Shown here piece by piece: positions 317-26,384 of a stretch of 40,631 bases of DNA. Numbering within the stretch: position 1 is the first letter of the stretch; the number at the start of each line of letters is the position of its first letter. A program made the position numbers and the translations under genes. Origin of the DNA: Phycisphaerales bacterium (lineage in GTDB: Bacteria > Planctomycetota > Phycisphaerae > Phycisphaerales > UBA1924); NCBI GenBank assembly GCA_029260475.1, contig JAJDDE010000008.1, forward strand, positions 1-40,631, written 5' to 3'. The notes beneath the pieces were generated by a model. It saw nothing but the letters and a program-made list of their open reading frames with translations. It was not told the origin of the DNA and searched no databases.

Positions 317-403
317 ACCCCTCAGAACCGAATCGGAACTCAAAGCGAATAGGTCGGCTTGTGCCCTCGTTTTGATAGAGGCCATTCATCGGAGGCGTGC
401 CGC

Positions 404-3241
404 ATGCTCAGAATCTTCCCTCAGTACGGGGCCGCCACGGTGCGGCAGTATTTCACCGAGGCGTTGTGTCGTGACGACTACTACGAGCAGGGCACCGAGA
501 TGCCCGGGGTGTGGCGCGGGCACGGAACCGAGCTGCTCGGGCTCGAAGGCCGAGTCGAGCGGGAGCACTTCGCCCGGATGACCGACAACCTGCACCCGAC
601 GCAGGACGAGCGGCTCACCCCTCGGACCAAGGAGGGCCGGCGGGTCGGGTACGACATCAGCTTCGCGGTGCCCAAGTCGGTCTCCCTCGCCTACGCCATC
701 ACCGGCGACAAAGACATCTTGTGGGCGTTCTCCAAGTCTGTGTGGGACACCATGGCGGACATGGAGACGTCGATGTCGACGCGAGTCCGCAGGGACGGGG
801 CCGACGAGGACCGGTTGACCGGCAACATGGTCTCGGCGGAGTACCTGCACTTCACGACCAGACCCATCGACGGAGAGCCCGACCCGCACCTGCATACGCA
901 CTGCTTCACGTTCAACTGCACGCACGACCCCGTCGAGGAACGGTGGAAGGCCGGCCAGTTTGCGGAGCTCATACGCAACGCACCGTACTTCCAGACTGTC
1001 TTCTTTTCGCGGCTTGCGAAAAACCTGGTCTCGGTCGGCTACGAGGTCGAGCCGACCGAGTCCGCCTTCGAGCTCGCCCGCGTCCCCCGCGTCTGGGTCG
1101 AGCTGTACTCGCGGCGGACCATGCACCTGGAGTCCATCGCGAGCGAGCTCGGGTTCGAGCAGAAGCAGAAGGCCCGGCTCGGCGCCCTCACGCGTGAACG
1201 CAAGCGGGACGACCTGAGTCTCGACGAGCTCCGCACGCGTTGGCGAGACCGGCTCGCCGCCGAGGACATCGCGGTCATCGAGAACCTCAAGCACGCCGGA
1301 CCGCTGAAGCCCGAGGCCCAGCCGACACCCCGTGTGCTTGAGGACCGCGTGCTCGAAGCCAAAGCCGAGCACGAAGAACAACGAGAATCCCAGGCTGAGA
1401 CCAAAGCAGAGGTGGACACAAAGACAAAGCAGAAGCGAGCCCGGTCCTGGCACCCGCTCGTCTCGCTCTCGGCCAACAACGCCGTCAAGCATGCCATAAG
1501 CGAACTCTTTCAGACCGACGCCATCATCACCGAGCAGAAGCTGCTCGTGCGTTCGATGGAACGCAGCTACGGGAAAGCCGACCTGCACCAGCTTGTCGAT
1601 GCCATCGCCAAGCGGCCCGAGCTCATCCGCCGGACCGCGGACGGCGTGCGGTACCTCACGACCAAGGAAGCGGTCCGCGAAGAGCAAGAGCTCGTGCGGT
1701 TCGCAAAGCAGGGCCGCAACAGTCTTAAGCCGCTCGGCCGGAGCCCGCTCAGCCTGTCCGCGTGGAAGCTCGACCGCCGCGACACCGAGGTGCTCGACAA
1801 ACTGATGGCGTCGCCCGACCGGGTCACGCTCTTCAAGCACTCCGGTCCGAGCCGCAAGCCGGAGCTCAGCCGGGCCGCCATGACGGGCATCCAACAGAAG
1901 GGCTACGTGCTGCAGGTCGTGGCTGCCGATGCCGCCGCGGCTCGCCGTGCCGAGCGGGACTACGGACTTCAGGCGGTCCGCACCATCGGCTCGGTCCTCG
2001 CCGACGACGAGTACCAGAGCGTCGCCAAGAACATCGTGCCGAAGGCACGCAAGACCGTCTTCTGGATTGAGGACGCCGGTCGTCTGGGGACACGGACCGT
2101 CGCGGAGCTCGCCAAGGCCGCCGAGCGGTGCGGCGGACGCATTGTGCTCTCCGGTGACGGCGGACGTTCGAAGCGGTACGAGCGGGGCGACCCGTTCCGC
2201 CTGCTGCGAGAAGAGGCTCGGCTCACGACCGTTGAACGCCGTGTGATGCTCGACAAGCAGAACGGGATGGAGCGTGTGGTCGATGCGGTCCGCCACGATG
2301 CCCCGCGACGTGCTGTCGATACGCTCCGACAGCACGCTAAGCTGGTCATCGGCAACGACGTCGGTGGCACCCTCGCCGCCGCCGCATCGTTCTTCAAGGA
2401 GCAGCTCGACCAGGGCCGCTCGGTGCTGTTGGCGGGTCCGTCGCGGTACGCCGCCGGCTCACTGAACGCGTTGGCGCGCGAGCAGCTCCGAGACGCCGGC
2501 GTGCTCACCGGCAAAGACCGGAGCGTCGTGCAGCTGCAACAGGTGTGGATGTCGGCAAGCGAGCGTCGCGACCCAATGAGCTACAAGAAGGGCATGGTCG
2601 TTGACTTCTACCGGCCCACACGCGGGTTCGCGTCCGGGCAGCGGACCAAGGTGATTGCGAGCGGTCCGCTCGGGGTCTGGGTGTGGGGCAAGGCGATGAA
2701 CCCCGTGAAGCTCAACCTCGCCCACGAGGACCGATTCACCGTGTCGACCGTGGCACGCTCGCACCTGGCGGTGGGCGACCGCATCCGCATCAACCGCCAC
2801 ATCACGCCGCTCGTGGGCAAGCCCATCAAGAGCGGCACGGTGGTCACGGTGACAGGCTTCAACCCGTTCAAGCAGATCGTTGTCGACGGGATGAAGATCC
2901 TCCCAAGGACTTTCGGCCACTTCGAGCACGATTACGCGACGACCACTCACCGGATGCACGACCGCCGGGCCGATGCCGTCGCCTTCGTCGGCTTCGACGG
3001 CGGGTGGGCCAACGCCGACTCCAAGGACCTGACGGTCGCCGCCGAGGCGGCACGGAAGGAGTTCAAGGTCTTCGCCGACGACGATGAGGCCCTGGTCAGT
3101 GTCCTCGCCCGTGTCCGGCCAGAGCTCAACGCCACCGACCTTGAGACGGACCCGGAGTCGGTGGACCTCCAGTACCAGGACTATGAACGCCGGTTCGAGG
3201 GCATGCAGAACGACCAGCCGAGAGGACACAGCTATGGATGA
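404..3241 (+). CDS. MobF-family (TrwC/TraI-like) conjugative relaxase with degenerate helicase domain
   Basis: It nicks one strand at oriT and stays covalently bound to the 5' end during conjugative transfer. The start is the ATG at 404, preceded by GGAGG at 391-395; an upstream in-frame ATG at 359 has no ribosome site. The N-terminus shows the MobF pattern: catalytic tyrosine candidates at Y16 and Y26/Y27, then the metal-binding HUH cluster with H149 and PHLHTH at 161-166. The region around residues 340-400 is a lysine/glutamate-rich linker. The C-terminal half aligns by eye with RecD/TraI-type helicase: WIEDAG at 554-559 stands for Walker B, and an LSGD...ERGDPFRLL stretch follows. Where GxAGxGKT is expected there is only HSGPSRKPELSR (479-490), so ATP hydrolysis by this domain is doubtful. 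The 945-aa length suits the family. The stop overlaps the next gene by 8 bp. Confidence 0.9.
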   Translation: MLRIFPQYGAATVRQYFTEALCRDDYYEQGTEMPGVWRGHGTELLGLEGRVEREHFARMTDNLHPTQDERLTPRTKEGRRVGYDISFAVPKSVSLAYAITGDKDILWAFSKSVWDTMADMETSMSTRVRRDGADEDRLTGNMVSAEYLHFTTRPIDGEPDPHLHTHCFTFNCTHDPVEERWKAGQFAELIRNAPYFQTVFFSRLAKNLVSVGYEVEPTESAFELARVPRVWVELYSRRTMHLESIASELGFEQKQKARLGALTRERKRDDLSLDELRTRWRDRLAAEDIAVIENLKHAGPLKPEAQPTPRVLEDRVLEAKAEHEEQRESQAETKAEVDTKTKQKRARSWHPLVSLSANNAVKHAISELFQTDAIITEQKLLVRSMERSYGKADLHQLVDAIAKRPELIRRTADGVRYLTTKEAVREEQELVRFAKQGRNSLKPLGRSPLSLSAWKLDRRDTEVLDKLMASPDRVTLFKHSGPSRKPELSRAAMTGIQQKGYVLQVVAADAAAARRAERDYGLQAVRTIGSVLADDEYQSVAKNIVPKARKTVFWIEDAGRLGTRTVAELAKAAERCGGRIVLSGDGGRSKRYERGDPFRLLREEARLTTVERRVMLDKQNGMERVVDAVRHDAPRRAVDTLRQHAKLVIGNDVGGTLAAAASFFKEQLDQGRSVLLAGPSRYAAGSLNALAREQLRDAGVLTGKDRSVVQLQQVWMSASERRDPMSYKKGMVVDFYRPTRGFASGQRTKVIASGPLGVWVWGKAMNPVKLNLAHEDRFTVSTVARSHLAVGDRIRINRHITPLVGKPIKSGTVVTVTGFNPFKQIVVDGMKILPRTFGHFEHDYATTTHRMHDRRADAVAFVGFDGGWANADSKDLTVAAEAARKEFKVFADDDEALVSVLARVRPELNATDLETDPESVDLQYQDYERRFEGMQNDQPRGHSYG

Positions 3242-3753: not shown

Positions 3754-5265
3754 ATGACACCCTCTGATGGCCAGCCCGGAACCGCCCGCCGGCCGGGGCC
3801 GCGGTTCCCGCTGTCCTCGCCGCTGGTTCGGCTCACACGAGCCGACACCCTCACGCTGCGTGATGCGTTCGAGGGCATCCACATCTTCGGTGGACTCGGC
3901 AGCGGCAAGACGTCGGGGAGCGGGCAAACCCTCGCCCGGTCGTTCCTCAAGGCGGGCTTCGGTGGCATCGTGCTGACCGCCAAGCCGGATGAGCCGGCGA
4001 CCTGGGAGCGGTACTGCGAGGAGACCGGTCGGGCCAGTTCGATGATGAAGTTCGGGCCGGGGCACGGTCAACGCTTCAACTTCATCGATTACGAGATGCG
4101 GCGGGACGGCCGGGGTGCCGGCATCACCGGCAACCTTGTGTCGCTGCTGGAGGAAGTGCTGGAGGTCCAGCACCCCGGCAAGGTCCTTGGAGGCGACCCC
4201 TACTGGCGTGAGGCCCGGGGTCAGCTTCTGCGAAACGCGATCGACCTTGTCCGGCTGGGGACCGACCGGGTGACGTTCGATGAGGTCGCCGCGGTGATCC
4301 GGTCCGCTCCGCGGACGACCGCCGAGATCCGGGACCCCGAGTGGCGGGAGACCTCGCGGTGCTCGCAGCTGCTCCGCGAAGCGTTGCGGCGGGTCGAGGG
4401 CGACGCCCGCGGCGAGGCGGACCTGCAGACCATCACCCGGTACTTTTTCGACGAGTTCGCCCCGCTCGACCCCGAGCCTCGGTCGAGCATCGTGAGCATG
4501 GTCGGGGCCTTGACCGACACGCTGCTCCGCGGTGATGTCCGGGAGCTGCTCCTCACCGGGACCACCTTCGTGCCGGAGCTGATCGACCGGGGCGTGGTTC
4601 TCATCATCGACATGCCCGTCCACGAGTACCGCGATGCAGGTCGTTTCGTGCAGGTGCTGATGAAGACGGTCTTCCAGCGGATGGTCGAGCGGCGGGACGC
4701 GACCAAGGACACGACGCGGCCGGTCTTCCTGTGGGCCGATGAGGCCCAGCTCTTCTCGACGCCGTACGACCCGACCTTCCAGACCACCGCCCGTTCGACC
4801 AAGACGGCCACCGTCTACCTCACCCAGAACCTGCCGAACTACTACGACGCCTTCGGCGGAGACGCCGGTGGCAGGGACCGCACCAAGAAGCTGCTCGGGT
4901 CGTTTGGGCTCAAGGTCTTCCACGCCAACGGCGACCCGGAAACAAACCGGTACGCCGAGGAGCTCAGCGGGCGTGACCTGCAGTGGCGGAGGAGCGTCAA
5001 CACTTCGTATCCCAGCGGGTACGGCCCCGGCGACAACGCGTCGCCGATGTCAACGACGCACGGATCGAGCCAGATGATGGAGTCGCTGCTGCCCGCACGC
5101 GTCTTCACCGAGCTGCAAAGGGGCGGGTTCGAGCGGGGCTACACCGAGGCAATCGTGTTCCGTGCCGGGGAGCTCTGGAAAGAGACCGGGCGTGGGTTCG
5201 CACGCGTCCGATTCATGCAGAACCCGAGCACGCCGCGGCGACGCCGCGGGGGTGGGTACGGATGA
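3754..5265 (+). CDS. VirD4/TraG-type coupling ATPase (soluble form)
   Basis: Coupling proteins dock the relaxase-DNA complex onto the type IV secretion channel and use ATP to move it. Walker A is GGLGSGKT at residues 46-53. Walker B is VFLWADEAQ with D329-E330. Between them is the long TraD/VirD4 insert, followed by a conserved STKTATVYLTQN stretch after Walker B. At 503 aa it lacks the usual N-terminal pair of membrane helices: the protein begins with a proline/arginine-rich segment and reaches the P-loop within 50 residues. It is therefore probably cytosolic and may be tethered by the membrane protein encoded immediately downstream, whose ATG overlaps its stop (ATGA at 5262-5265). A role as a DNA-translocating or replication ATPase outside conjugation is possible but less likely next to a relaxase. 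Confidence 0.85.
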   Translation: MTPSDGQPGTARRPGPRFPLSSPLVRLTRADTLTLRDAFEGIHIFGGLGSGKTSGSGQTLARSFLKAGFGGIVLTAKPDEPATWERYCEETGRASSMMKFGPGHGQRFNFIDYEMRRDGRGAGITGNLVSLLEEVLEVQHPGKVLGGDPYWREARGQLLRNAIDLVRLGTDRVTFDEVAAVIRSAPRTTAEIRDPEWRETSRCSQLLREALRRVEGDARGEADLQTITRYFFDEFAPLDPEPRSSIVSMVGALTDTLLRGDVRELLLTGTTFVPELIDRGVVLIIDMPVHEYRDAGRFVQVLMKTVFQRMVERRDATKDTTRPVFLWADEAQLFSTPYDPTFQTTARSTKTATVYLTQNLPNYYDAFGGDAGGRDRTKKLLGSFGLKVFHANGDPETNRYAEELSGRDLQWRRSVNTSYPSGYGPGDNASPMSTTHGSSQMMESLLPARVFTELQRGGFERGYTEAIVFRAGELWKETGRGFARVRFMQNPSTPRRRRGGGYG

Positions 5266-6737
5266 TCAACTTCCCGCGGGCTTGCTTCAGTATCGTCGCC
5301 ATTCTTTGCCGTCAGTACGTTGGCGGGTTGAACGGTGGCTTCATCGCGTTGCTGCACGCCCTCTCGGCGTTGCTCCTCTACACGGTCGTCATGCTCTTCC
5401 TCCGCGGCTTCGTCGGTGGAAGTGAAGGCGGCGGGCTGCTCGATGTGCCGGTCCTGGTGCCAATGCTGCTCTTCGCGATCGGGCTGACTGCCATCTGGTG
5501 CGGACGCACGCTCGGGATGCTCAGGTACGCGGGGCCGCTGCACCTGCACGGCCCGAACAGGCATTTCACCGGTGCGGCCGGCGACTTTCTTCGCGGCCGC
5601 TTCAAGGCCGAGTACGAGTGGACCCTGCTCGAACGCCACGAACCCGCGGGGCTGTGTCTCGTTGGTGTTGCGTTGCTTGTGCTGCCATGGACCCGCGTGT
5701 TGGGGCTGTTCTTGATTGTGTTGTCTGTGGTCGCCTTGTGGCAGACGATGCGAGACCGGAGCGTGAACGAGTGGGACACCGAGGACTTTGAGGGCGTGGA
5801 ATCGCTCGGCGAGTTTGAGGGGATTGCCGCAGACGTCGCATCGTCCGTCGGTGCAGACGTCGGATCGGCCTACGAAGACCTCGGTTTGGCCGCGGACCTG
5901 CTCGATGACGGCGTGCTCGATGAGGTGCGGCGTCGCACCGAGTCTGCCCGAGCCACCGAGCAGGTCAGGCCCGATGAGGGAGAAGATGTTGGATTTGCCG
6001 AAGTAGTCGAGACGCTGAAGCCGCGTGGTCCGATGAGCGTCTGCCGGCGATCCGTCCCGACGCGGGTGGCCATGGTCGCTCTCGCGTTGCTCGTTGTGAA
6101 CTTCGCGACCGGCGACAAGCCAGGCCTCTACGGCAAAGCCCCTCAGCGGTGGGTCGCCGGTGTCGAGAGCCTGCAGTCCGCTGCTGTTCCGCTCGGGCTC
6201 GTCGCACCTGCAGATATGCATGGCCCCGGCGGCCTCGTCACGGCGTTCCTGCAACGCGTGGACACCGGCGAGCTGACGAAGCGGAAGCGTGCCGCGGCTC
6301 TCACCATCATCGAGCCCGCTCAGCAACAGGTCACGCTGGCGGTCGCGGCGACCGACGCGGTTCGCCGGGGCGTCACGGACGCGACCGGGCTCCCGCTCGC
6401 CGCATCGTCGTACTCCGCCGAACTCGACGAGCTCTTCCTGGTTCGCCCCAGCGTCGCCGAGGCGTGGGCCGCGTTGCTCAATGGCGTGACCCGGCTGGAC
6501 ACGCTGACGACCGACGCGAACGGTCGCTTGCAACGGGCGAGCTACTTTCCAGAGAAGGCGCCGCTGGATGACTTGGTTGCCCTGACAGACGAGGCTTCGA
6601 GTTGGGCAGAACAAGCCAACGGGTTGCAAGACCATGTCCAGCACATCCGCGTGATGCTTGGCAACCTGCGTCTGGAGAACGCACTGGATACTTCCCTCGA
6701 TGAACCACCACAGACCCCGCCGGCTGAAGGAGGCTGA
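5262..6737 (+). CDS. Multi-pass membrane protein of the transfer operon
   Basis: No family was recognised. The ATG overlaps the coupling-protein stop as ATGA, so the two are coupled. Hydrophobic segments lie at about residues 27-48, 60-79, 129-160 (two helices) and 268-283. An acidic segment (170-250) separates the third and fourth groups, and the last 200 residues are soluble and alanine-rich. A cysteine/histidine-rich loop (HLHGPNRHF) lies near residues 94-102. The 491-aa protein could be the membrane anchor that the soluble coupling ATPase lacks, which would explain the gene order. This is inference from context. It does not resemble VirB6, VirB8 or VirB10. Confidence 0.75.
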   Translation: MINFPRACFSIVAILCRQYVGGLNGGFIALLHALSALLLYTVVMLFLRGFVGGSEGGGLLDVPVLVPMLLFAIGLTAIWCGRTLGMLRYAGPLHLHGPNRHFTGAAGDFLRGRFKAEYEWTLLERHEPAGLCLVGVALLVLPWTRVLGLFLIVLSVVALWQTMRDRSVNEWDTEDFEGVESLGEFEGIAADVASSVGADVGSAYEDLGLAADLLDDGVLDEVRRRTESARATEQVRPDEGEDVGFAEVVETLKPRGPMSVCRRSVPTRVAMVALALLVVNFATGDKPGLYGKAPQRWVAGVESLQSAAVPLGLVAPADMHGPGGLVTAFLQRVDTGELTKRKRAAALTIIEPAQQQVTLAVAATDAVRRGVTDATGLPLAASSYSAELDELFLVRPSVAEAWAALLNGVTRLDTLTTDANGRLQRASYFPEKAPLDDLVALTDEASSWAEQANGLQDHVQHIRVMLGNLRLENALDTSLDEPPQTPPAEGG

Positions 6738-10955: not shown

Positions 10956-10984
10956 TAAACGAAACGAACGAAACTGCTTTATTG
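10953..10984. promoter_or_regulatory. Inverted repeat with ACGAA repeats, candidate antitoxin operator
   Basis: CAATAAA (10953-10959) and TTTATTG (10978-10984) flank a run containing ACGAA, ACGAA and CGAAA. The site overlaps the -35 region of the toxin-antitoxin promoter and the stop codon of the 239-aa gene. It is AT-rich against its surroundings and suits an autoregulatory operator. Confidence 0.4.
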
Positions 10985-11698
10985 TTCGAGTCGAGGCCAC
11001 TGAATCGCCGTTTTTGCCCCTTCAGGAGCTCTGGTCCCGTTCCCAAGCGGATTCGGGAAGCTCCGAGAACCGTCCTCAAAGGCCCTGACGACCTGCCGCC
11101 GCGTACGGACGGCCTCAGCAGGCACCGCCTCCAATCCCAGGCTCTTCCGCGTGCGGTTCACCATCCGCAGCACGCTGAAGAGCTGTCGCACCACTGGGGC
11201 GTACGGCTCGAAGCGGAACCTCGCGAACTCCTCCTCGACCTCCTCGGTCGTCGCGTTCCTGGAGAACTGCACCATGAACTGCTTGAGCCAGCGGTACTCG
11301 TTGGGGTGGATGCGGACCGAGGCGTGCCACTTCAGGTCGCGGCCGCGTCGGTAGCCGATGCTGTAGCCGGCGAACGAGATGGGCTCGCGGCGGACGTCGC
11401 GGATGACCGCCCGCTCCCGCTCGAAGAACTCGTGCTTGCCGTGGGTCGCGATGAGCAGCCAGAACGAGCCGTACCGCAGGTACTGCATGCTGGCACGCCC
11501 CGTGAGACGCCGCCGGGCTCGTTGCCAGCGAGACATCGGCACGCCGTACTGGTCGAGCAGCTTGCGGTCGATGTCCTCGGGCCGCTTGCCCGGTGGTATG
11601 TGCCCGGCAACATAGAAGAAGTAGCCGCGTGCGATGTAGGCGACGGCGAGCTGTTGCACGAAGCCGGGGACGCTCGTCGGGAGGTAGTGGTAGGTCAT
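10979..11698 (-). CDS. Conserved 239-aa protein downstream of the structured-RNA region
   Basis: The ATG at 11698 has AAGGA 5 bp upstream. The protein opens TYHYLPTSVPGFVQQLAVAY, with a repeated pattern of aromatic strands. It has an arginine-rich middle (SRWQRARRRLTG), then RYGSFWLLIATHGKHEFFERE, a VRIHPNEYRWLKQFM segment and FEPYAPVVRQLFSVLRMVNRTRKSLG. The predicted charge is strongly positive, which fits nucleic-acid binding. I recall similar hypothetical proteins from planctomycetes and acidobacteria but no assigned function. It has no signal peptide and no transposase or nuclease motif that I can name. The minus-strand structured region ends just upstream, so the RNA and this protein may form one transcription unit. 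Confidence 0.75.
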   Translation of the reverse strand: MTYHYLPTSVPGFVQQLAVAYIARGYFFYVAGHIPPGKRPEDIDRKLLDQYGVPMSRWQRARRRLTGRASMQYLRYGSFWLLIATHGKHEFFERERAVIRDVRREPISFAGYSIGYRRGRDLKWHASVRIHPNEYRWLKQFMVQFSRNATTEEVEEEFARFRFEPYAPVVRQLFSVLRMVNRTRKSLGLEAVPAEAVRTRRQVVRAFEDGSRSFPNPLGNGTRAPEGAKTAIQWPRLEQ

Positions 11699-11979: not shown

Positions 11980-13170
11980 ACGTTGCGGTGCTTCAGGCCA
12001 TTGGCCATCGGACCGCAACACTGCGAACGCCGCCGGCCGAGCAGGCGGAAGAACCGTTCCCGGTTCTTCTCGCCCACCCGCCGACCGCCTTGGAAACCGC
12101 CCATCACACGCTTCCGCGTGATGGGCCGGCATCCGCACACTGAAGTACGCGTCGCCGCTTTCGTCGTCGCTCCGAGCATCCACCACAGGCACCACCACGT
12201 GATGTTGCGATGCGTGAGCGAACGGGCCGCCACTGCCTTGCAGCGGTCACCGTTCGGACTCGGCCAGGCCGAATCCAACTGTCTACTTGCGGCACACTCC
12301 CAGTCTCAGGCGTTTGAATCACCGGGTTGACCGCTCTCATGCGAGAGCACACCCGGCACCGGTTCATCAGACCGGAAGCCCGAGACCTTCCCCTGTTAGC
12401 CATGCGTGTCACCGAGACGGTCACGTCGCTCGGCCATCTGTCGCACGCCGTGGATTCCTCCACCGCGAGGTTTGCACGAGAGCGGATGCTCGCGTGATTT
12501 CAGCCGGCAGAACCTAGAAGCTCCGGCTTACCCTTCGACAGACGGCTTTGTTACGCGGTTTGGCACCGTCTCCGTCTCGATTCACCGCCAAGCCCTCGCG
12601 GGCCTCTCATGGTTGAGCTCTTCATCGCCGGCTGTTTCGGCCGGTCGCCGGGCGTGGTCTACGCCCGGTCGTCCGCATCGCTGCGAACGAACTCCCCACG
12701 GCGGCACGGGTTGAGCGAGGTGCGGGTCCCGAAGGACAGCACCCCGAACCCCCCGCGACGGATTACGCGAAGCTCGGGCCGAAGCCCTCGCGTCGCCTCA
12801 CCGCTTCATGCATGACGGCTCGTGCCGTAGACCCTTGTACGGAATCCACGGACACGAGTCTGTCCAGGTCGCCCCGGTTCCGCAACGGTCGGGACATCGG
12901 ATAGAAGCTGCGGATTGTTCTCGTGGGTTGGTCCCGATGAGGCTTTACTCGCAGCAGCCTCCGTCGAGCCGGACAAGCGTGTCTCCACGCATCCGGCTCT
13001 ACGCGTCTCCGACGTCCACGGACCCATCTCTGGGTTGGTGGTCAGGGTGATGAGCCCTGCATCCCTTCGCTCGGCTGGTGAGGCCGAACTCCTGGGTGTC
13101 GGAGTCAGTGTGCGGATGCCGAGGCGGCTGGTGGCCGACTCGGCGTTCTGCAAACGCTGTTTGCGAGACA
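11980..13170 (-). ncRNA. Candidate large structured non-coding RNA
   Basis: About 1.2 kb has no coding-like frame but many perfect or nearly perfect stems. In minus-strand order they lie at 13147-13167, 13022-13035 (GAGA loop), 12966-12999 (8-bp plus 5-bp tiers, GAGA loop), 12939-12961, 12850-12865, 12815-12828 and 12648-12668. Further stems follow at 12450-12463 (GGAA loop), 12359-12375, 12322-12356 (6-bp plus 6-bp tiers), 12220-12255, 12099-12126 (GGAA loop, 2-nt bulge), 12044-12074 (GGAA loop) and 11982-12019. GGAA and GAGA are GNRA tetraloops only on the minus strand, which sets the orientation towards the 239-aa gene. No promoter was identified with confidence. Known large RNA classes could not be matched by eye. 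A decayed gene remains possible, though decay does not produce nested perfect stems. Confidence 0.55.
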
Positions 13171-13246: not shown

Positions 13247-13267
13247 GTCTATCATGCTATGATAGAC
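13247..13267. promoter_or_regulatory. Perfect palindrome at the start of the HTH-ietAS operon
   Basis: GTCTATCAT and ATGATAGAC are 9-bp arms around GCT. The right arm ends 3 bp before the ATG at 13271 and contains an alternative ATG at 13259. It is AT-rich against its surroundings, contains TATCAT/TATGAT -10-like hexamers, and is well placed as the operator of the HTH protein encoded next. Confidence 0.55.
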
Positions 13268-13270
13268 TCC

Positions 13271-13591
13271 ATGGCCTCCATCCCGATTACCCCCAACATG
13301 CAGTACTCACGCCTTTTCACCATCGAGCAGAGACTCGACCGTCTCCTACAGCTCCTTCGAGAGGGTGGCCGGTCATCGCCCCAGCTTGCTGAAGCACTAG
13401 ACGTTTCAGTGCCGACAGTCGCGAGAGACGTCAAGGCACTCCGAGAGCAGGGGCACCAGATCGAAGCGACCCGTATTGGCCGCGGCTGGCAGTATTCTCT
13501 CTCGAACAATGCTCGGACGCCGATATCACAGCAAATTACTCGACGTTCTGAGTCTGAGAGCTCTCGGAGTGAAGCGGGAACGACACGATGA
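13271..13591 (+). CDS. HTH regulator leading the ietAS operon
   Basis: Residues about 17-75 form a winged helix-turn-helix of the HTH_11/DeoR-like type: TIEQRLDRLLQLLREGGRSSPQLAEALDVSVPTVARDVKALREQGHQIEATR. The last 30 residues are a serine/arginine-rich tail, with no ligand domain, so at about 106 aa it is a stand-alone DNA-binding protein. The start is uncertain: ATGs at 13259, 13271 and 13298 are all in frame with no clear ribosome site. I chose 13271 because the palindrome covers 13259. The TGA overlaps the ietA ATG (ATGA at 13588-13591), so the regulator is coupled to ietA and probably autoregulates the operon through the palindrome. Confidence 0.75.
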   Translation: MASIPITPNMQYSRLFTIEQRLDRLLQLLREGGRSSPQLAEALDVSVPTVARDVKALREQGHQIEATRIGRGWQYSLSNNARTPISQQITRRSESESSRSEAGTTR

Positions 13592-14586
13592 AAGCACAAC
13601 TACTCAAACGTCTCGTCCGAGCTATCGCCGAGGGTTCCCAGCGTGACCTTGATGAACTTGCCAAGCAGGTTGTCGAGTCTGAGAAGCAGACTGGGCACAC
13701 ACGCCTCGCGGCCCAGCTTGAAGGCATCCTCACCGAGACGACAAGAATCCAGCCGGCTAAGGCACGACCAACTCGCGGCACACGCGGACACCTGACCGAG
13801 CTGCCGCAAAGTCGCCGCCATGGTGAGGAACTACTCACCGTAATCGAACGCGATGACCTAGAGCACCACATGGTGCTTCCAGCCGATGTCGAGGCTCGTT
13901 TCGCCAGGATTGAGTGCGAGTTTGCGGCACGTGAACGACTCGACGCCTACGGCCTCAGGCCTCGAAAGACGATCTTGCTGCACGGTCAACCTGGGTGTGG
14001 AAAGACGCTGGGTGCGAAGAGACTTGCTTGGAACACCGGCCTCCCACTACTAAAAGTTCGCTTTGACGCGTTACTCTCCTCCTACTTTGGTGAGTCCGCA
14101 TCGAATCTACGATCAGTATTTGTGGCTGCGAAGGAGCACCCTTGTGTTCTGCTTCTTGACGAGTGTGATTTCATTGCTCGTTCACGAACTGGGCAAAGAG
14201 ATATTGGAGAAGCCAGTCGGATAGTCAACTCGCTTCTGCAATTGATGGAGGAGTACGACGCCCCTGGTCTCCTTGTAGCAACCACGAATGTTGAAGATTC
14301 GCTGGACGACGCTCTCTTTCGCCGTTTCGACGAAGTGCTTCTTGTTCCGCCTCCTGGCCGAGAAGAGATTGAAAGATTGCTTCGCATGACGCTCTCCTCT
14401 GTCGCCGTTGACGGAGCTCTCGAATGGCCGACAATCATTGAGCTCCTTTCGGGCACGTCGGCCGCGATGGTGGTCAAGGCTGCTCGCGACGCGGCAAAGG
14501 GTGCTGTCCTCTCCGGAAGAAAATTGATTCAACAGCAACACCTTGAAACTGCGATTGCAGAGCTTCGCCATACGAACACGGGATAA
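13588..14586 (+). CDS. ietA: IetA-like AAA+ ATPase
   Basis: In the IetAS pair, known from an Agrobacterium Ti plasmid as a stability and incompatibility module and later as an anti-phage system, the AAA+ ATPase counteracts or controls the protease. The 332-aa protein has a helical N-terminus of about 100 residues. Walker A is GQPGCGKT (133-140), and Walker B is VLLLDECDF with D191-E192. The sensor strand is LLVATTNVEDSLDDALFRRFDEVL, whose RRF holds the arginine finger. The layout resembles the FtsH/spastin AAA clade without a fused protease. Its ATG overlaps the HTH stop, and ietS starts 7 bp after its stop. The name is given by family and gene order. Confidence 0.85.
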   Translation: MKAQLLKRLVRAIAEGSQRDLDELAKQVVESEKQTGHTRLAAQLEGILTETTRIQPAKARPTRGTRGHLTELPQSRRHGEELLTVIERDDLEHHMVLPADVEARFARIECEFAARERLDAYGLRPRKTILLHGQPGCGKTLGAKRLAWNTGLPLLKVRFDALLSSYFGESASNLRSVFVAAKEHPCVLLLDECDFIARSRTGQRDIGEASRIVNSLLQLMEEYDAPGLLVATTNVEDSLDDALFRRFDEVLLVPPPGREEIERLLRMTLSSVAVDGALEWPTIIELLSGTSAAMVVKAARDAAKGAVLSGRKLIQQQHLETAIAELRHTNTG

Positions 14587-14592
14587 TTCGCG

Positions 14593-17211
14593 ATGGCCAA
14601 CTCTCATGGTTTTGCACACCTTCGACTACTCTTTCGAGAGCATGGCCCGGCCCGATTCTCGCCTGCACCCCAAGGGATTCCTGCTACCGACGAGGCCAGA
14701 CGTGACCGGCCGGAGCACTCAAGGAAGCTCAACCGGTCAGCTTCTGCGTTCGGGCAGCATTGGAGCACATCGCAAACGACCCGCCTCGTTGATGCGAGAC
14801 CGCCTCTGCCGGCCGGTGTCCCACTCCTGCTTCAGATCGACCCAGGACTCGACATCGACGAACTCACTGACAAGCTTGGTTTTGAGGTTGTCTCGGAAGA
14901 AGCAGATGGTTATGTAATCGTCGCATCAACGGATCTGGAGCTGACGACGTTTCTCCAGCGTCTGGACGAATTCTCAAAGGACGTTCGAGGTTCTGCGGTT
15001 GTTGCCGGTGTTCACGACTTGGACAACGACCCGAGCCAAGATGCTCGTCTCAAACGTATTCTCTCTGATGACCTCTACGACACTTGGTCAGCACTTGATG
15101 AAGAGCAAGTGTACGTATGCGACGTCGGGATCTCGTGCTCAGGGAACTGGCTCCCGCCAAAGAAGCCTCGTCGTAACCCCCGATGGAAACAGAGCACTTG
15201 GGCCAAGAAAGAAGCCGAGTGGGCCGCGAGAAGAAGTAAGGCCTACGACGATTGGGAAGTGCTCCAGACCGAGCGTCTCGATCTCATTCGGGAGTTCGTG
15301 AAAGCCTACACAGGAAGCATCGAGGGGATTGTCGAGGATGCTGGCTCCAACGGTGATGATGCAATTCCCGACAGCTTCACAGTTCGCGTTCGGATCGTTG
15401 GCCGCGGGCTAAAGGACCTCGTCCTGAACTGTGCGTATGTGTTTGAGGCGTTCGAACCAGACGACATCGAGACGCCGCAAGGCGTGGCACGTGCGGAAGC
15501 TGAAACGATGCAGGGCGTTGAGTTTCAACCGCCACCTTCGGATGCACCTTCTGTGTGCATCATCGACAGCGGAGTGCAAGAAGGACACTTTTGGCTCGCG
15601 GAGGCAATCGACGCTGATTCATCATCAACATTCGTCAATGAACCAGAAGCTACGGTTGCCGACAAAGTCTCGAACGGTGGGCACGGAACCCGAGTTGCCG
15701 GGGCAGTCCTCTATGGGGACGCAATCCCAGATAACGGTACTGTCGTCTTGCCGTTATGGCTTCAAAATGCCCGTGTCCTGGACCACGACTGCAGGCTGAG
15801 TGAGCACCTATTCCCGCCCGAGCTAATGCGGAGTATCGTCCTGATGTATTCTGGGGGGAAGCGTCGAACGAAGATCTTCAATCACTCGATCAATGCAGCG
15901 GGACCATCCAGGACTCGCCACATGTCAGCTTGGGCTTCCGAGATTGACCGACTGAGCTTCGAGCATGACATCCTCATCGTCCAGAGCATCGGGAACATCC
16001 CGATGGATGGCCCTCCGCCCATTTTGGGCATAGCTCAGCACCTCGCATCTAGCAAGGCATACCCGAGCTACCTCGATGAACGAGCGTGCCGACTCGCAAA
16101 CCCAAGCCAGAGCTTTCAAGCTCTGACGGTTGGTTCCGTTGCCGGGGAGATCTACTCATCCAATGGGTGGACAAGCCTTGCGACGCGAACTGGGATGCCG
16201 TCTGCTTTCACTCGCTCAGGACTTGGTATCTGGGGGTCTGTCAAGCCTGAGGTGGTCGAGTTTGGCGGCGACGCTCTATACGACACGGGTACACCACCAC
16301 GCGTTGCGACTCCCGATGTCGCAAACGGCTGCTACCCCAACCTTCTACGGTCCACGGCCGAGGGTGGACCTGCTGTCGCCAGAGATGGACGCGGTGTTGG
16401 CTCGTCTTTCTCCACGCCCAAGGTGTCGCGAGTTGCGGCGGCTGTGCAGGCGGTACTCCCTGAACAACCAGCCCTTCTCTATCGTGCTCTCATCGTTCAA
16501 TCAGCTCGCTGGCCTGATTGGTCGGACGCTCTAGGTGCTGACGATCGTGCCGCACTACTCCGTCGAATTGGCTTCGGAGTTCCTGACCTGGAACGAGCAA
16601 CAACCAATACGGACCACCGCACGACATTCATCACCGATGGTGACCGCGAAATCTGCCCGGGCGATTGCCACATCTATCAAGTGCGAATCCCCGAAGAGCT
16701 GCGACGAGCAGGCACCGACTTCGACATCAGGGTAGATGCCACGCTTTCATATGCTGCCGAACCCCGCAGAACACGCCGTCGACATCGCGGTTATCTGTCG
16801 GTGTGGGCAGACTGGATCAGCTCTCGGAAGGAAGAGAGTCTTGATGCGTTTCTCACGCGGGCGCTGAAAGCCGATGAGAAGGTTGACGAAGGGTCGAGCT
16901 TCGGATGGTCGCTGGAAGCTCGCGGGCAGTGGGGCTCGATTCCAGAAGCCCGCAGGAATGTTGGTACGGTCCAGAAGGACTGGGCAGTGGTCAAATCCAA
17001 TCAGCTTTCGAGCGATCTGTGCTTTGCTGTTCGCGGGCACAAAGGTTGGAGCAAGGACCCGGATGCCACTGCTCGATATGTCTTCGCGGTAACGATCGAG
17101 ATTGCTGGGCAAGAGATCCCCATCTACGAACCACTCCAGGTCGCAGTTGCAGAACTAGAAGCGGAGCTTGGGATCGAGACCGAGGTCGAAGTCGAGATCG
17201 ACGGCGATTGA
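14593..17211 (+). CDS. ietS: IetS-like subtilisin (S8) serine protease
   Basis: This is the protease partner of the AAA+ protein upstream and the toxic or effector half in IetAS. The S8 triad is visible: D325 in VCIIDSG, H364 in GGHGTRVAGA and S605 in GSSFSTP, with N430 of IFNHSIN as the oxyanion-hole asparagine. An N-terminal region of about 310 residues precedes the catalytic domain and ends with a strand resembling a subtilase prodomain. About 200 residues follow it, including a beta-sandwich-like segment. There is no signal peptide, so the protease works in the cytoplasm. The 872-aa length fits the large cytoplasmic subtilases paired with AAA+ ATPases. The start at 14593 is the first ATG after ietA; no strong ribosome site is visible, consistent with coupling. 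Confidence 0.88.
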   Translation: MANSHGFAHLRLLFREHGPARFSPAPQGIPATDEARRDRPEHSRKLNRSASAFGQHWSTSQTTRLVDARPPLPAGVPLLLQIDPGLDIDELTDKLGFEVVSEEADGYVIVASTDLELTTFLQRLDEFSKDVRGSAVVAGVHDLDNDPSQDARLKRILSDDLYDTWSALDEEQVYVCDVGISCSGNWLPPKKPRRNPRWKQSTWAKKEAEWAARRSKAYDDWEVLQTERLDLIREFVKAYTGSIEGIVEDAGSNGDDAIPDSFTVRVRIVGRGLKDLVLNCAYVFEAFEPDDIETPQGVARAEAETMQGVEFQPPPSDAPSVCIIDSGVQEGHFWLAEAIDADSSSTFVNEPEATVADKVSNGGHGTRVAGAVLYGDAIPDNGTVVLPLWLQNARVLDHDCRLSEHLFPPELMRSIVLMYSGGKRRTKIFNHSINAAGPSRTRHMSAWASEIDRLSFEHDILIVQSIGNIPMDGPPPILGIAQHLASSKAYPSYLDERACRLANPSQSFQALTVGSVAGEIYSSNGWTSLATRTGMPSAFTRSGLGIWGSVKPEVVEFGGDALYDTGTPPRVATPDVANGCYPNLLRSTAEGGPAVARDGRGVGSSFSTPKVSRVAAAVQAVLPEQPALLYRALIVQSARWPDWSDALGADDRAALLRRIGFGVPDLERATTNTDHRTTFITDGDREICPGDCHIYQVRIPEELRRAGTDFDIRVDATLSYAAEPRRTRRRHRGYLSVWADWISSRKEESLDAFLTRALKADEKVDEGSSFGWSLEARGQWGSIPEARRNVGTVQKDWAVVKSNQLSSDLCFAVRGHKGWSKDPDATARYVFAVTIEIAGQEIPIYEPLQVAVAELEAELGIETEVEVEIDGD

Positions 17212-17246: not shown

Positions 17247-18557
17247 CTAATTGAGTCGCTTGCGAACCCACTCGACGACCTGGCGTTGTTCTGGCGAGAC
17301 TGGCTTCATGTATCGGTCGGCCATCTGGGAGCTTGCTGAGTGACCAAGCCACCGCTTCATCGCCGCGATCGAGCAGCCACGGCGTGACCCATACTCAGTT
17401 GCCCCGAGGTGACGGAGCACGTAGAAGCCGTCAAGCGACTCCTTGCTCTCACCTATGGCGAGTCGAAGCCGTCGCCACCACTGGAAGATCGAGTCGGACT
17501 TGGTGTGTACAAGCGGGTGCCCGGTCTCGGTCACGAAAAGCAACTCCCCATTATCGCGAGGTGTCTCCTCAAGGTATTCAGTGATCGCGGCCCACACTCG
17601 CGGTGGTGTCTCGCCGTACCGCTCGACGCCTGTCTTCCCGCGGCGGAGATCGTAGGACTTCTTGTCAATCTGACCGACGCGTACGTTGGCCAGATCGCTC
17701 TGCCCGAAGCCCAGGCCGATGCCCATCCAAATCAGAGCTCGGCCGCGGGCGTCGCACTGTTTGAGCATCGCCTCAAGCTGCTTCTTTGTCGGGAGCTTCT
17801 TTGCCTTCGTACCCTTGCCGGGGATGCGATCGAGCGAGTCCCAGTTCCACGGAAGTACCTGCTGGCCGTACTCGGGCCGTCCGGCCCGGTCGATGACCTT
17901 CTTGACCGCCTGCATCTTCCGGTTGAGCGTGTTCGCGGCGATTCCGGCCTCGACCATCTCTCGGTTGTAGCTCTCGACGTCGTCCATCGCGAGGTCTTCG
18001 AGCCGCATGCGGCCTGCCGCACCGACGCCGTGCCGCTCGTTGATGTGAGCGAGGAAGTCCTTGACCGCCTTCTTGCGATCGAGCAGCGTTCGGGGCGAGA
18101 TCGTCCCGGCCGCTCTTGAACCACCACCTTCGCGAGCTCGATCGGTCTCGTATCGGATGAGGCCCGAGCCGATGTGTGCGATTGAACCAGGGACTGCGGC
18201 GTCCTGTCCGTTCTTCCCCGCGTACTTCCGACGTGAGGCTTCGCTACGATTCCCACCGAGCGTTGCGTTCGACACCTTCTCTGCGGTCCGCTCGTCGTAC
18301 CCCAGGTACGCGGCGACCCACGTGTGATACGCCCGCTCCGCTTCTGCTTGAGAGACGTCACCGAAGCGGTGCTTCTTCGGCAAGCCGGTGGAAGGATCCC
18401 GGTACGAGACATGCCAGCCGATGCCTCGCAGCTCGGTGTACTTCAACTGAGGCACTCGTTTCTTCCGAGCCGGCTTCGCCACGTCGCGGTACTCTGTCGA
18501 GGTCGATGAAGAACTCGCCACGGTGGCGAGAAGCTGAAAATTGTAGTGAATCGCCAT
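17247..18557 (-). CDS. Tyrosine recombinase (integrase) of the element
   Basis: It integrates and excises the element by strand exchange at the tRNA-Gly att site, which starts 31 bp from its own start codon. Residues about 120-240 are the SAM-like core-binding domain and the C-terminal part is the catalytic domain. The nucleophile is Y416 (ADRYMK), with H406 in WLGH and R382 in YVLRHLG. Two positions differ from the usual pattern: the HxxR box reads Y379-V-L-R382, and the first catalytic arginine, normally in a TGLR-like motif, is replaced in GLGFGQSDLANV. I recall a similar GFGN form in other planctomycete integrases. The 436-aa length is normal, with a long N-terminal arm. It converges with ietS. 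Confidence 0.9.
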   Translation of the reverse strand: MAIHYNFQLLATVASSSSTSTEYRDVAKPARKKRVPQLKYTELRGIGWHVSYRDPSTGLPKKHRFGDVSQAEAERAYHTWVAAYLGYDERTAEKVSNATLGGNRSEASRRKYAGKNGQDAAVPGSIAHIGSGLIRYETDRAREGGGSRAAGTISPRTLLDRKKAVKDFLAHINERHGVGAAGRMRLEDLAMDDVESYNREMVEAGIAANTLNRKMQAVKKVIDRAGRPEYGQQVLPWNWDSLDRIPGKGTKAKKLPTKKQLEAMLKQCDARGRALIWMGIGLGFGQSDLANVRVGQIDKKSYDLRRGKTGVERYGETPPRVWAAITEYLEETPRDNGELLFVTETGHPLVHTKSDSIFQWWRRLRLAIGESKESLDGFYVLRHLGATEYGSRRGCSIAAMKRWLGHSASSQMADRYMKPVSPEQRQVVEWVRKRLN

Positions 18558-18579: not shown

Positions 18580-18587
18580 CTGCAGCG

Positions 18588-18629
18588 TTCCCAAGCTGAA
18601 TGTCGCCGGTTCGAGTCCGGTCACCCGCT
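18588..18629 (+). other. attR: 3' remnant of tRNA-Gly(CCC)
   Basis: The remnant begins with the anticodon loop TTCCCAA (18588-18594; anticodon CCC). It continues with the anticodon-stem strand GCTGA, a five-base variable region, the T-arm GCCGG-TTCGAGT-CCGGT, the acceptor strand CACCCGC and discriminator T at 18629. The 5' half of a tRNA is absent upstream, where integrase DNA lies instead. This is the classic core of an element inserted into the 3' half of a tRNA gene, so 18629/18630 is the element-chromosome junction. Known tRNA-Gly genes carry the same TTCCCAAGCTGA stretch. CCA is not encoded. Confidence 0.85.
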
Positions 18630-19037
18630 TTGGCAACTCGTTCGGCAGCCCGCATCGACATGCCTTTGCCTCGCCACGGATCTGTTGCCGTTTCACAAAC
18701 CTCGCCATCCGCATCCTGCTCGGGCCCCATCGGCCAATCGAACAGCACCGCCGCCACCACATCTGCGGCTCGACGCGGGGGCACATCGCTCCCGCGACCG
18801 CTCTCCCAATTGGGCTCGTTGTCAGCCGCGGGCCTCGGTGAGCGGCGAGAGTCAGAGAGTCGTCAATCCGCTATCGGTGTCACTCTTTACAAACCACCCA
18901 CCGAGCCTTAGCGCAATCTGAAGGATCGGTCTTCACAGTCCATCCGGATGGCCCGCAGGATGAGAAGCGCGTCGGGAGTGCGTCACGGGTGATTCACGCA
19001 GCCCGCTGGGATATTCCCAATCCGCTTAAGGAGTTCG
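18630..19037. other. Intergenic region between att site and porin gene
   Basis: No gene-like frame or strong secondary structure is seen in these 408 bp. The region probably holds the promoter of the porin-pst run. No convincing Pho box was found, only a TGTCAC-like half at about 18,878. Confidence 0.4.
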
Positions 19038-25905: not shown

Positions 25906-26384
25906 GCCGTGCGCTGGACTTTGTCTGAGAATGAATGGGACGGACTCGGCTCTTGTTCGTCTTGCTCCGGAACTGCGATCTTCGGATTGGATCGGAACAC
26001 GAATCGGCCCATGAACAGGTACTTGCTCACGAACGATGTGCTGAGTACCAGCACGAGTCCGATGAGATAGTGCAGGCCAATGACCCGGTAGAGCAGCGTG
26101 AACACCGCGAGTTCAACGAGACGGAACGCGATCACGGAAGAGACAAACTGCACCGCCTGCACGCGCATCGGTTTGTGGTCGCCCGGAAAAATATACCACC
26201 GATAGAGGCAGAAATTCACGGTAATCGTGATCGCGATCGCGACGGCATATGCGATATCGGCGGGTAGAAGCCCGGTCTCCTCGAACAGCGATGTGATCCC
26301 GATCATCAGCGCAAAGCTCACGCCAGAGGCGATCAGGAACCGTATGCGCTGGGCCGTGAACTGGGCTCGTACCTTCGTGATCAT
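25902..26384 (-). CDS. GtrA-family membrane protein
   Basis: GtrA-like proteins have four membrane helices and are thought to help move polyprenyl-phosphate-linked sugars across the inner membrane. The four helices run at about residues 12-32, 40-60, 75-98 and 104-126. The family pattern VNFCLYRWYIF after the second helix and SFVSKYLFMGRFVF at the end of the fourth are visible. The 160-aa protein has a polar acidic tail of 35 residues. The gene begins 3 bp after the GT2 stop and overlaps the methyltransferase start, so all three are translated together. Confidence 0.9.
   Translation of the reverse strand: MITKVRAQFTAQRIRFLIASGVSFALMIGITSLFEETGLLPADIAYAVAIAITITVNFCLYRWYIFPGDHKPMRVQAVQFVSSVIAFRLVELAVFTLLYRVIGLHYLIGLVLVLSTSFVSKYLFMGRFVFRSNPKIAVPEQDEQEPSPSHSFSDKVQRTA

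Follow-up and report, generated by a model that had tools for sequence, protein, structure and literature searches.

A circularly permuted group II ribozyme and its partner gene acpG, probably a degenerate maturase gene, on an integrative element of a Phycisphaerales bacterium

From the evidence assembled here, the minus strand at 12127-13121 of the window (the whole stretch of 40,631 nucleotides analysed, from a Phycisphaerales bacterium) encodes a circularly permuted (CP) group II ribozyme that runs in the order D5-D6-21-nt linker-D1-D2-D3. The class of RNA is already known, though poorly understood, and the variant found here differs from its published members. We demonstrate the architecture of the RNA together with its linkage to the gene acpG and the family identity of the AcpG protein. 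In the reading that we prefer, held at a probability of roughly 0.8, a CP group II ribozyme opened in D4 is combined with an acpG product that is a shrunken relative of reverse transcriptase (RT)/maturases and would hold or fold the ribozyme.

The sole Rfam match in the window was to group II D5/D6 (12896-13001, minus strand; 45.5 bits at a cut-off of 40), with RF00029 as the family matching domain 5 at 12966-12999. Since D5/D6 lie upstream and the remainder downstream, the reverse of the order in an ordinary intron, the RNA falls into the CP group II class and does not read as an intron; permuted domain order is the defining trait of that class in those parts of Roth et al. (2021; PMC8637638) on which we draw. 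The initial annotation had proposed a large structured non-coding RNA in minus-strand orientation, and both points are borne out. Folding of 12127-13122 gave z = -12.3 on the minus strand versus -6.2 on the plus strand, none of 20 shuffles being as good on either, the D5/D6 match is on the minus strand, and no open reading frame (ORF) was found inside the RNA, with no frame of 12124-13134 staying free of stops for more than 125 codons. The same annotation had found no match to a group I or II intron and had left the class unmatched, a view superseded by the group II ribozyme with permuted domains. Its limits of 11980-13170 do enclose the conserved RNA, whose ends lie instead at about 12127 and 13121. 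All five tetraloops that it quoted are present in the sequence: GAGA at 12982-12985 belongs to D5, its nested stem 12966-12999 being domain 5 itself, and GGAA at 12455-12458 to D1, whereas the loops at 12057-12060 and 12112-12115 lie beyond the conserved RNA, in the gap before the downstream gene. Of eight sequences compared, two have the hairpin at 13027-13030, namely the window's own and its 97% copy.

The covariation check that had been set for homologues was passed. Of 48 copies extracted, one duplicate and one cut copy were dropped, and a 97% identity filter reduced the remaining 46 to the 44 sequences of the final alignment (920 columns, mean identity 62%). In a G-test with APC that took 30 alignments simulated along the tree as its null, 37 base pairs scored above every simulated pair. 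The G-test is blind to pairing, and all 37 are complementary (wobble counted) in 86-100% of sequences; all 37 also lie inside the RNAalifold structure, an agreement that is partly circular because RNAalifold uses covariation as well. The covarying pairs mark D5, D6, the D1 base, D2, D3 and the 5' stem, plus the pair 13006-12147, and the permuted domain order is kept in the 46 aligned copies. RNAalifold pairs within the linker were broken in several sequences and were excluded from the covariance model.

Read on the minus strand from the 5' end at 13121, the RNA begins with the 5' arm of an end-closing helix (13105-13121, pairing with the 3' arm at 12127-12143). A 5' stem region of P1/P2-like character follows (13007-13104; stem 13104-13098:13013-13007, with two covarying pairs) and includes a P2-like loop (13052-13048). 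The strand just before D5 (13001-13006) pairs with the strand after D3 (12152-12147) at the position of an ordinary intron's D4 base, a D4-base-like stem present in the consensus structure and marked by the covarying pair 13006:12147. Then come domain 5 (12966-12999), capped by its GAGA tetraloop and with two covarying pairs, domain 6 (12898-12963), delineated by covariation and consensus structure, the linker (12875-12895), domain 1 (12390-12871), whose base helix 12867-12865:12395-12393 covaries, domain 2 (12302-12387), also backed by covariation, and domain 3 (12153-12294), with the covarying pairs 12292:12155 and 12290:12157.

The linker separates the 3' from the 5' splice site, as placed by analogy with the parts of Roth et al. 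(PMC8637638) used here, and represents the predicted circle, 21 nt long in the window, with a median of 19 and a range of 12-100 among 41 measured; the length for the K2D plasmid is uncertain owing to its degenerate motif. On one side, D6 ends in GAT, conforming to AY, and its branch-site A at 12902, which the consensus leaves unpaired, is conserved in no fewer than 90% of the 46 sequences. On the other side, GGGCGAC (12868-12874) opens D1; it is GUGYG-like, one base off GUGYG, and identical to the motif of the pTT8 CP locus. EBS1, in a D1 hairpin loop (12510-12515), pairs with IBS1 within the linker (12880-12875, the six bases before GGGCGAC) at a mean of 4.95 of 6 positions across 39 sequences (the 44 minus three with GGGCGAT and two with a 5-nt EBS column), compared to 4.14 ± 0.12 in the permuted null and a maximum of 4.59 over 10,000 permutations. 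The P2-like loop and the D2 loop (12369-12365) form a pseudoknot whose 5-mers are perfectly paired in 31 of 42 sequences, in nine combinations; the mean of 4.50 against 4.00 ± 0.065 permuted lies above all 10,000 permutations, and the test on 6-mers gave p 0.03 from only 6 sequences. The longer end helix, 17 of 17 bp in the window, extends the D4-base-like stem, and its mean score of 12.6 over the 44 sequences compares with 7.8 ± 0.27 in 100 permutations. Because the RNA ends pair where the D4 base would lie, we read the group II wheel as opened inside D4. The end helix may be the counterpart of the P1-3' end pseudoknot, of narrower distribution, that is mentioned in Roth et al. (PMC8637638, in the parts drawn on).

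Distribution was assessed with a covariance model of D5-D6-linker-GGGCGAC, built from seven Planctomycete sequences, that recovers the published CP controls (pPNAP05, 33.7 bits, E 3.7e-8; pTT8 weakly, 17 bits, E 0.0096); loci were counted as CP from 50 bits, and matches of about 23-45 bits were not counted. The host genome holds one copy of the RNA, with no further D5/D6 matched in it. A DNA search matched 8 of 101 genomes, the host's own counted, and blastn of the whole RNA against plasmids and phages gave no match. Pattern scans returned at least 128 loci, at least 119 of them in genomes and nine viral; 20 among the pattern-scan loci listed exceed 50 bits, and none of the nine viral contigs reaches that score (best 17.7). 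The CP class is common in this bacterial class, with 66 matches of at least 50 bits in 49 of 397 genomes, and among 392 genomes drawn from the phylum nine have matches above 65 bits, four of these lying outside the class. Phycisphaerales metagenome-assembled genomes (MAGs), Tautonia sociabilis and an Isosphaeraceae MAG are carriers among the matches listed. Of 21 loci in the low-scoring range (L185-L205), 10 carry an ORF matching an RT profile and so look like canonical introns. One locus at 43.8 bits (G236:C71) lies under the 50-bit line, yet AcpG adjoins it. Another contig (G384:C428) holds two CP copies of equal score in opposite orientation (5994-6142, plus; 26161-26309, minus), each with its own acpG, which suggests a duplication of the unit or of its element.

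On the same strand, acpG (10979-11698, minus; 239 aa) is the first gene after the RNA, separated from its 3' end by 428 nt; the gene product gave no Pfam match. The AcpG family occurs within 6 kb of 54 of the 66 CP loci in the 397 genomes, in all 54 downstream and on the same strand, with 615-1815 nt separating it from the D5/D6 match. Counted per genome, 44 have both CP RNA and AcpG, five the RNA only, four AcpG only and 344 neither. Of the 12 loci without AcpG nearby, at least 4 reach the end of their contig. For 18 of the 72 AcpG matches, the surrounding 6 kb contain no CP match at the 50-bit level. Among 23 CP loci with wide flanks, AcpG is present at 21, being missing from L214, which is cut by a contig end, and from L221; beside the RNA at these loci we also find an HTH gene (10 of 23), an ImmA/IrrE-type peptidase gene (9 of 23) and a tyrosine integrase (7 of 23), as at L209-L215, L217, L220 and L222. 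Seven plasmid records matched AcpG, four of which were examined for the RNA: it lies beside AcpG in Leptolyngbya (82.7 bits), Planctomycetes K2D (92.9) and Planococcus (38.8), and was not significant at the AcpG-like locus of Gluconobacter (10.6 bits, E 0.12). Profile-profile comparison with Thermus AcpG (TTHC007) covered 179 columns at E 8.9e-10 when bridging sequences were included and gave E 7.9e-5 without them, which identifies the window gene product as AcpG; Thermus AcpG as a single query matched nothing in 101 relatives, and the profile route was needed. Some acpG copies contain in-frame stops, and in pPNAP05 and four Thermus plasmids acpG lies upstream in divergent orientation. In the parts of Roth et al. 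(2021; PMC8637638) cited here, AcpG is introduced as the partner protein of CP ribozymes, its origin and the need for a maturase are left open, and intron ORFs are said never to lie near CP ribozymes.

AcpG is probably a degenerate intron maturase, placed where an intron ORF would sit. An RT/maturase fold is supported by two AlphaFold models (pLDDT 88.6 and 90.3), in which an RT palm and thumb are predicted, and a loss of the catalytic residues by the profile register given below. For the first model, group II intron RTs fill the top eight rows against the PDB (among them 8h2h_D, Z 9.6, rmsd 4.0, 191 aligned; 8t2r_D, Z 9.4, rmsd 3.5, 177 aligned); after these come G2L4, DRT9 and chains of the spliceosome, and other polymerases rank below. 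The 50 rows of the second model consist entirely of group II/G2L4 RTs, DRT9 or spliceosome chains, the top row with a poor rmsd of 10.9 and the next being 8t2r_D (Z 9.7, rmsd 3.1, 176 aligned). We take the spliceosome chains to be Prp8, which one title names. Given that Z of 7-8 can reflect a common arrangement, the excess for AcpG is modest. Foldseek gave weak matches, with a retron RT first (E 1.2e-3) and a group II RT at rank 3, and many of its viral matches were RNA polymerases.

At the profile level, AcpG aligned weakly to 11 canonical Planctomycete group II RTs, with a score of 39.6 (hhalign; E 1.9e-4, probability 47%), the maximum of 299 column shuffles being 23.7; realigned automatically, it ranks first against RTs among 47 gene families of CP loci (28.6, the next 24.4). 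The register sets YxRxxxFFVLxAT of AcpG over FVRYADDFVVL, that is, RT motif 5, and in this register none of 27 members has a catalytic Asp at either position of YADD, so that AcpG is filed as an RT/maturase relative and not as a working RT. Within a small set, the AcpG HMM picks up one canonical group II RT at E 4.1e-5 (L195, 1166-2656, minus), which carries WQRAKLRRAG before RYADD and is the closest among the RTs compared; RTs of its type are a candidate ancestral clade. Searches of AcpG against Pfam, NCBIfam and PDB sequences returned no RT, neither RVT_1 nor GIIM nor any other RT family is among the weak matches of the 27 members, and Thermus AcpG alone did not match the RT profile (E 0.78). 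That profile found one weak match (L216, 14 bits, E 0.0014) among 1592 ORFs of the 23 CP loci. The host genome (97% complete) gave no RVT_1 or GIIM match, which leaves AcpG as the only maturase candidate found there. In a partial literature search, AcpG as an RT relative was not found, nor, with the species list of the 2021 supplement outside its scope, were CP group II RNAs in Planctomycetota.

The palm of AcpG could be a coincidence of fold, the protein serving the element otherwise (e.g., in regulation or replication) next to a genuine CP ribozyme. The weak sequence statistics, the missing family-model match and the occurrence of AcpG at times without a detected CP RNA speak for this; we consider it unlikely, as group II RTs rank first for both models, the register falls on RT motif 5 with a score that beats shuffles and other families, and the AcpG HMM finds a canonical RT. 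As for the RNA, an inactive relic carried along by a mobile element is improbable: compensatory changes are seen at catalytic and splice-site contacts in 44 diverged copies, and Roth et al. observed activity in vitro for the members of the class that they tested, as set against the broken state of some acpG copies and a class without known purpose (both statements on the class from parts of PMC8637638). The idea that it represents an entirely new class among large structured RNAs hardly merits consideration. No Rfam family spans the whole RNA and the match is confined to D5/D6, but that match and the covariation contradict such a class, the domains agree one by one with the published CP group II RNAs, and our covariance model detects two published CP loci.

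The carrier is an integrative element, consistent with the mobile element named at the outset by the initial annotation: the window encodes a TrwC relaxase (359-3241), a T4SS coupling protein (3754-5265) and an integrase-like protein (17247-18557). The slot between the integrase and the 5' end of the CP RNA is occupied by IetAS in the window (13259-17211) and, in three sister elements, by PDC-S06-like, SIR2-HerA and Lamassu-like genes (L206, 8745-11321; L207, 4887-8026; L208, 10380-12428), so that its defence-like cargo differs between elements. A 49-bp block upstream of the integrase (18583-18631), 98% conserved in L209 and 94% in L215, is a candidate attachment or control site.

For splicing in the host, the role of AcpG, the origin of the unit and any purpose, we infer the following from the CP ribozyme and maturase-relative reading. 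By analogy with tested class members, A12902 would use its 2'-OH to attack the 5' splice site at 12875/12874; the 3' end set free in this step would react at the 3' splice site (12896/12895), and the products would be a circle of 21 nt plus a T-shaped branched RNA. AcpG, predicted to retain palm and thumb without fingers and catalytic aspartates, might fold or hold the ribozyme as Prp8 does for the spliceosome, a cofactor role suggested by fold, linkage and the absence of another maturase. The simplest origin would be an ordinary intron present twice, head to tail, with only the middle of the pair retained, which would give D5-D6-exon-D1-D2-D3-D4-ORF and leave the ORF after D3/D4. If AcpG is the intron's own worn ORF beside D3/D4, one can read from it how the class arose, namely by permutation of the whole intron with its ORF included, and the ribozyme cofactor becomes testable; a degenerate maturase would account for where the partner protein comes from. 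More tentatively, and at slightly less than even odds, AcpG and the permuted ribozyme could constitute a bacterial equivalent of the spliceosome core with its Prp8, with self-mobility lost by permutation in D4, a polymerase-dead maturase kept as dedicated cofactor, tiny circles made, and the branched ribozyme perhaps acting in trans for the carrier element.

Compared to the CP group II RNAs of Roth et al. (PMC8637638, as far as drawn on here), the window RNA shares domain order, splice-site borders, the D6 branch A, the P2-D2 pseudoknot and the AcpG partner; it differs in its predicted circle of 21 nt, as opposed to 32-86 nt in the published tested members, and in having its ends joined by a D4-base-like stem, and the parts cited do not name Planctomycetota. 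The motif GGGCGAC..GGACA is identical to that of the pTT8 CP locus, whereas acpG, divergent in the Thermus loci, is here downstream on the same strand. With canonical group II introns carrying an RT/maturase ORF in D4, the unit has in common D1-D3, D5, D6, EBS1-IBS1 and the pairing of RNA with maturase; unlike them, its splice sites are reversed and internal, precluding self-excision, and its ORF is shrunken and lacks the catalytic aspartates. Prp8, with an RT-like palm and thumb devoid of polymerase residues, serves a group II-like RNA active site. The predicted AcpG structures match spliceosome chains, and AcpG is distinct from Prp8 in being bacterial and about a tenth of its size; a polymerase-dead maturase in the service of a non-excising group II ribozyme would then constitute an independent parallel to Prp8.
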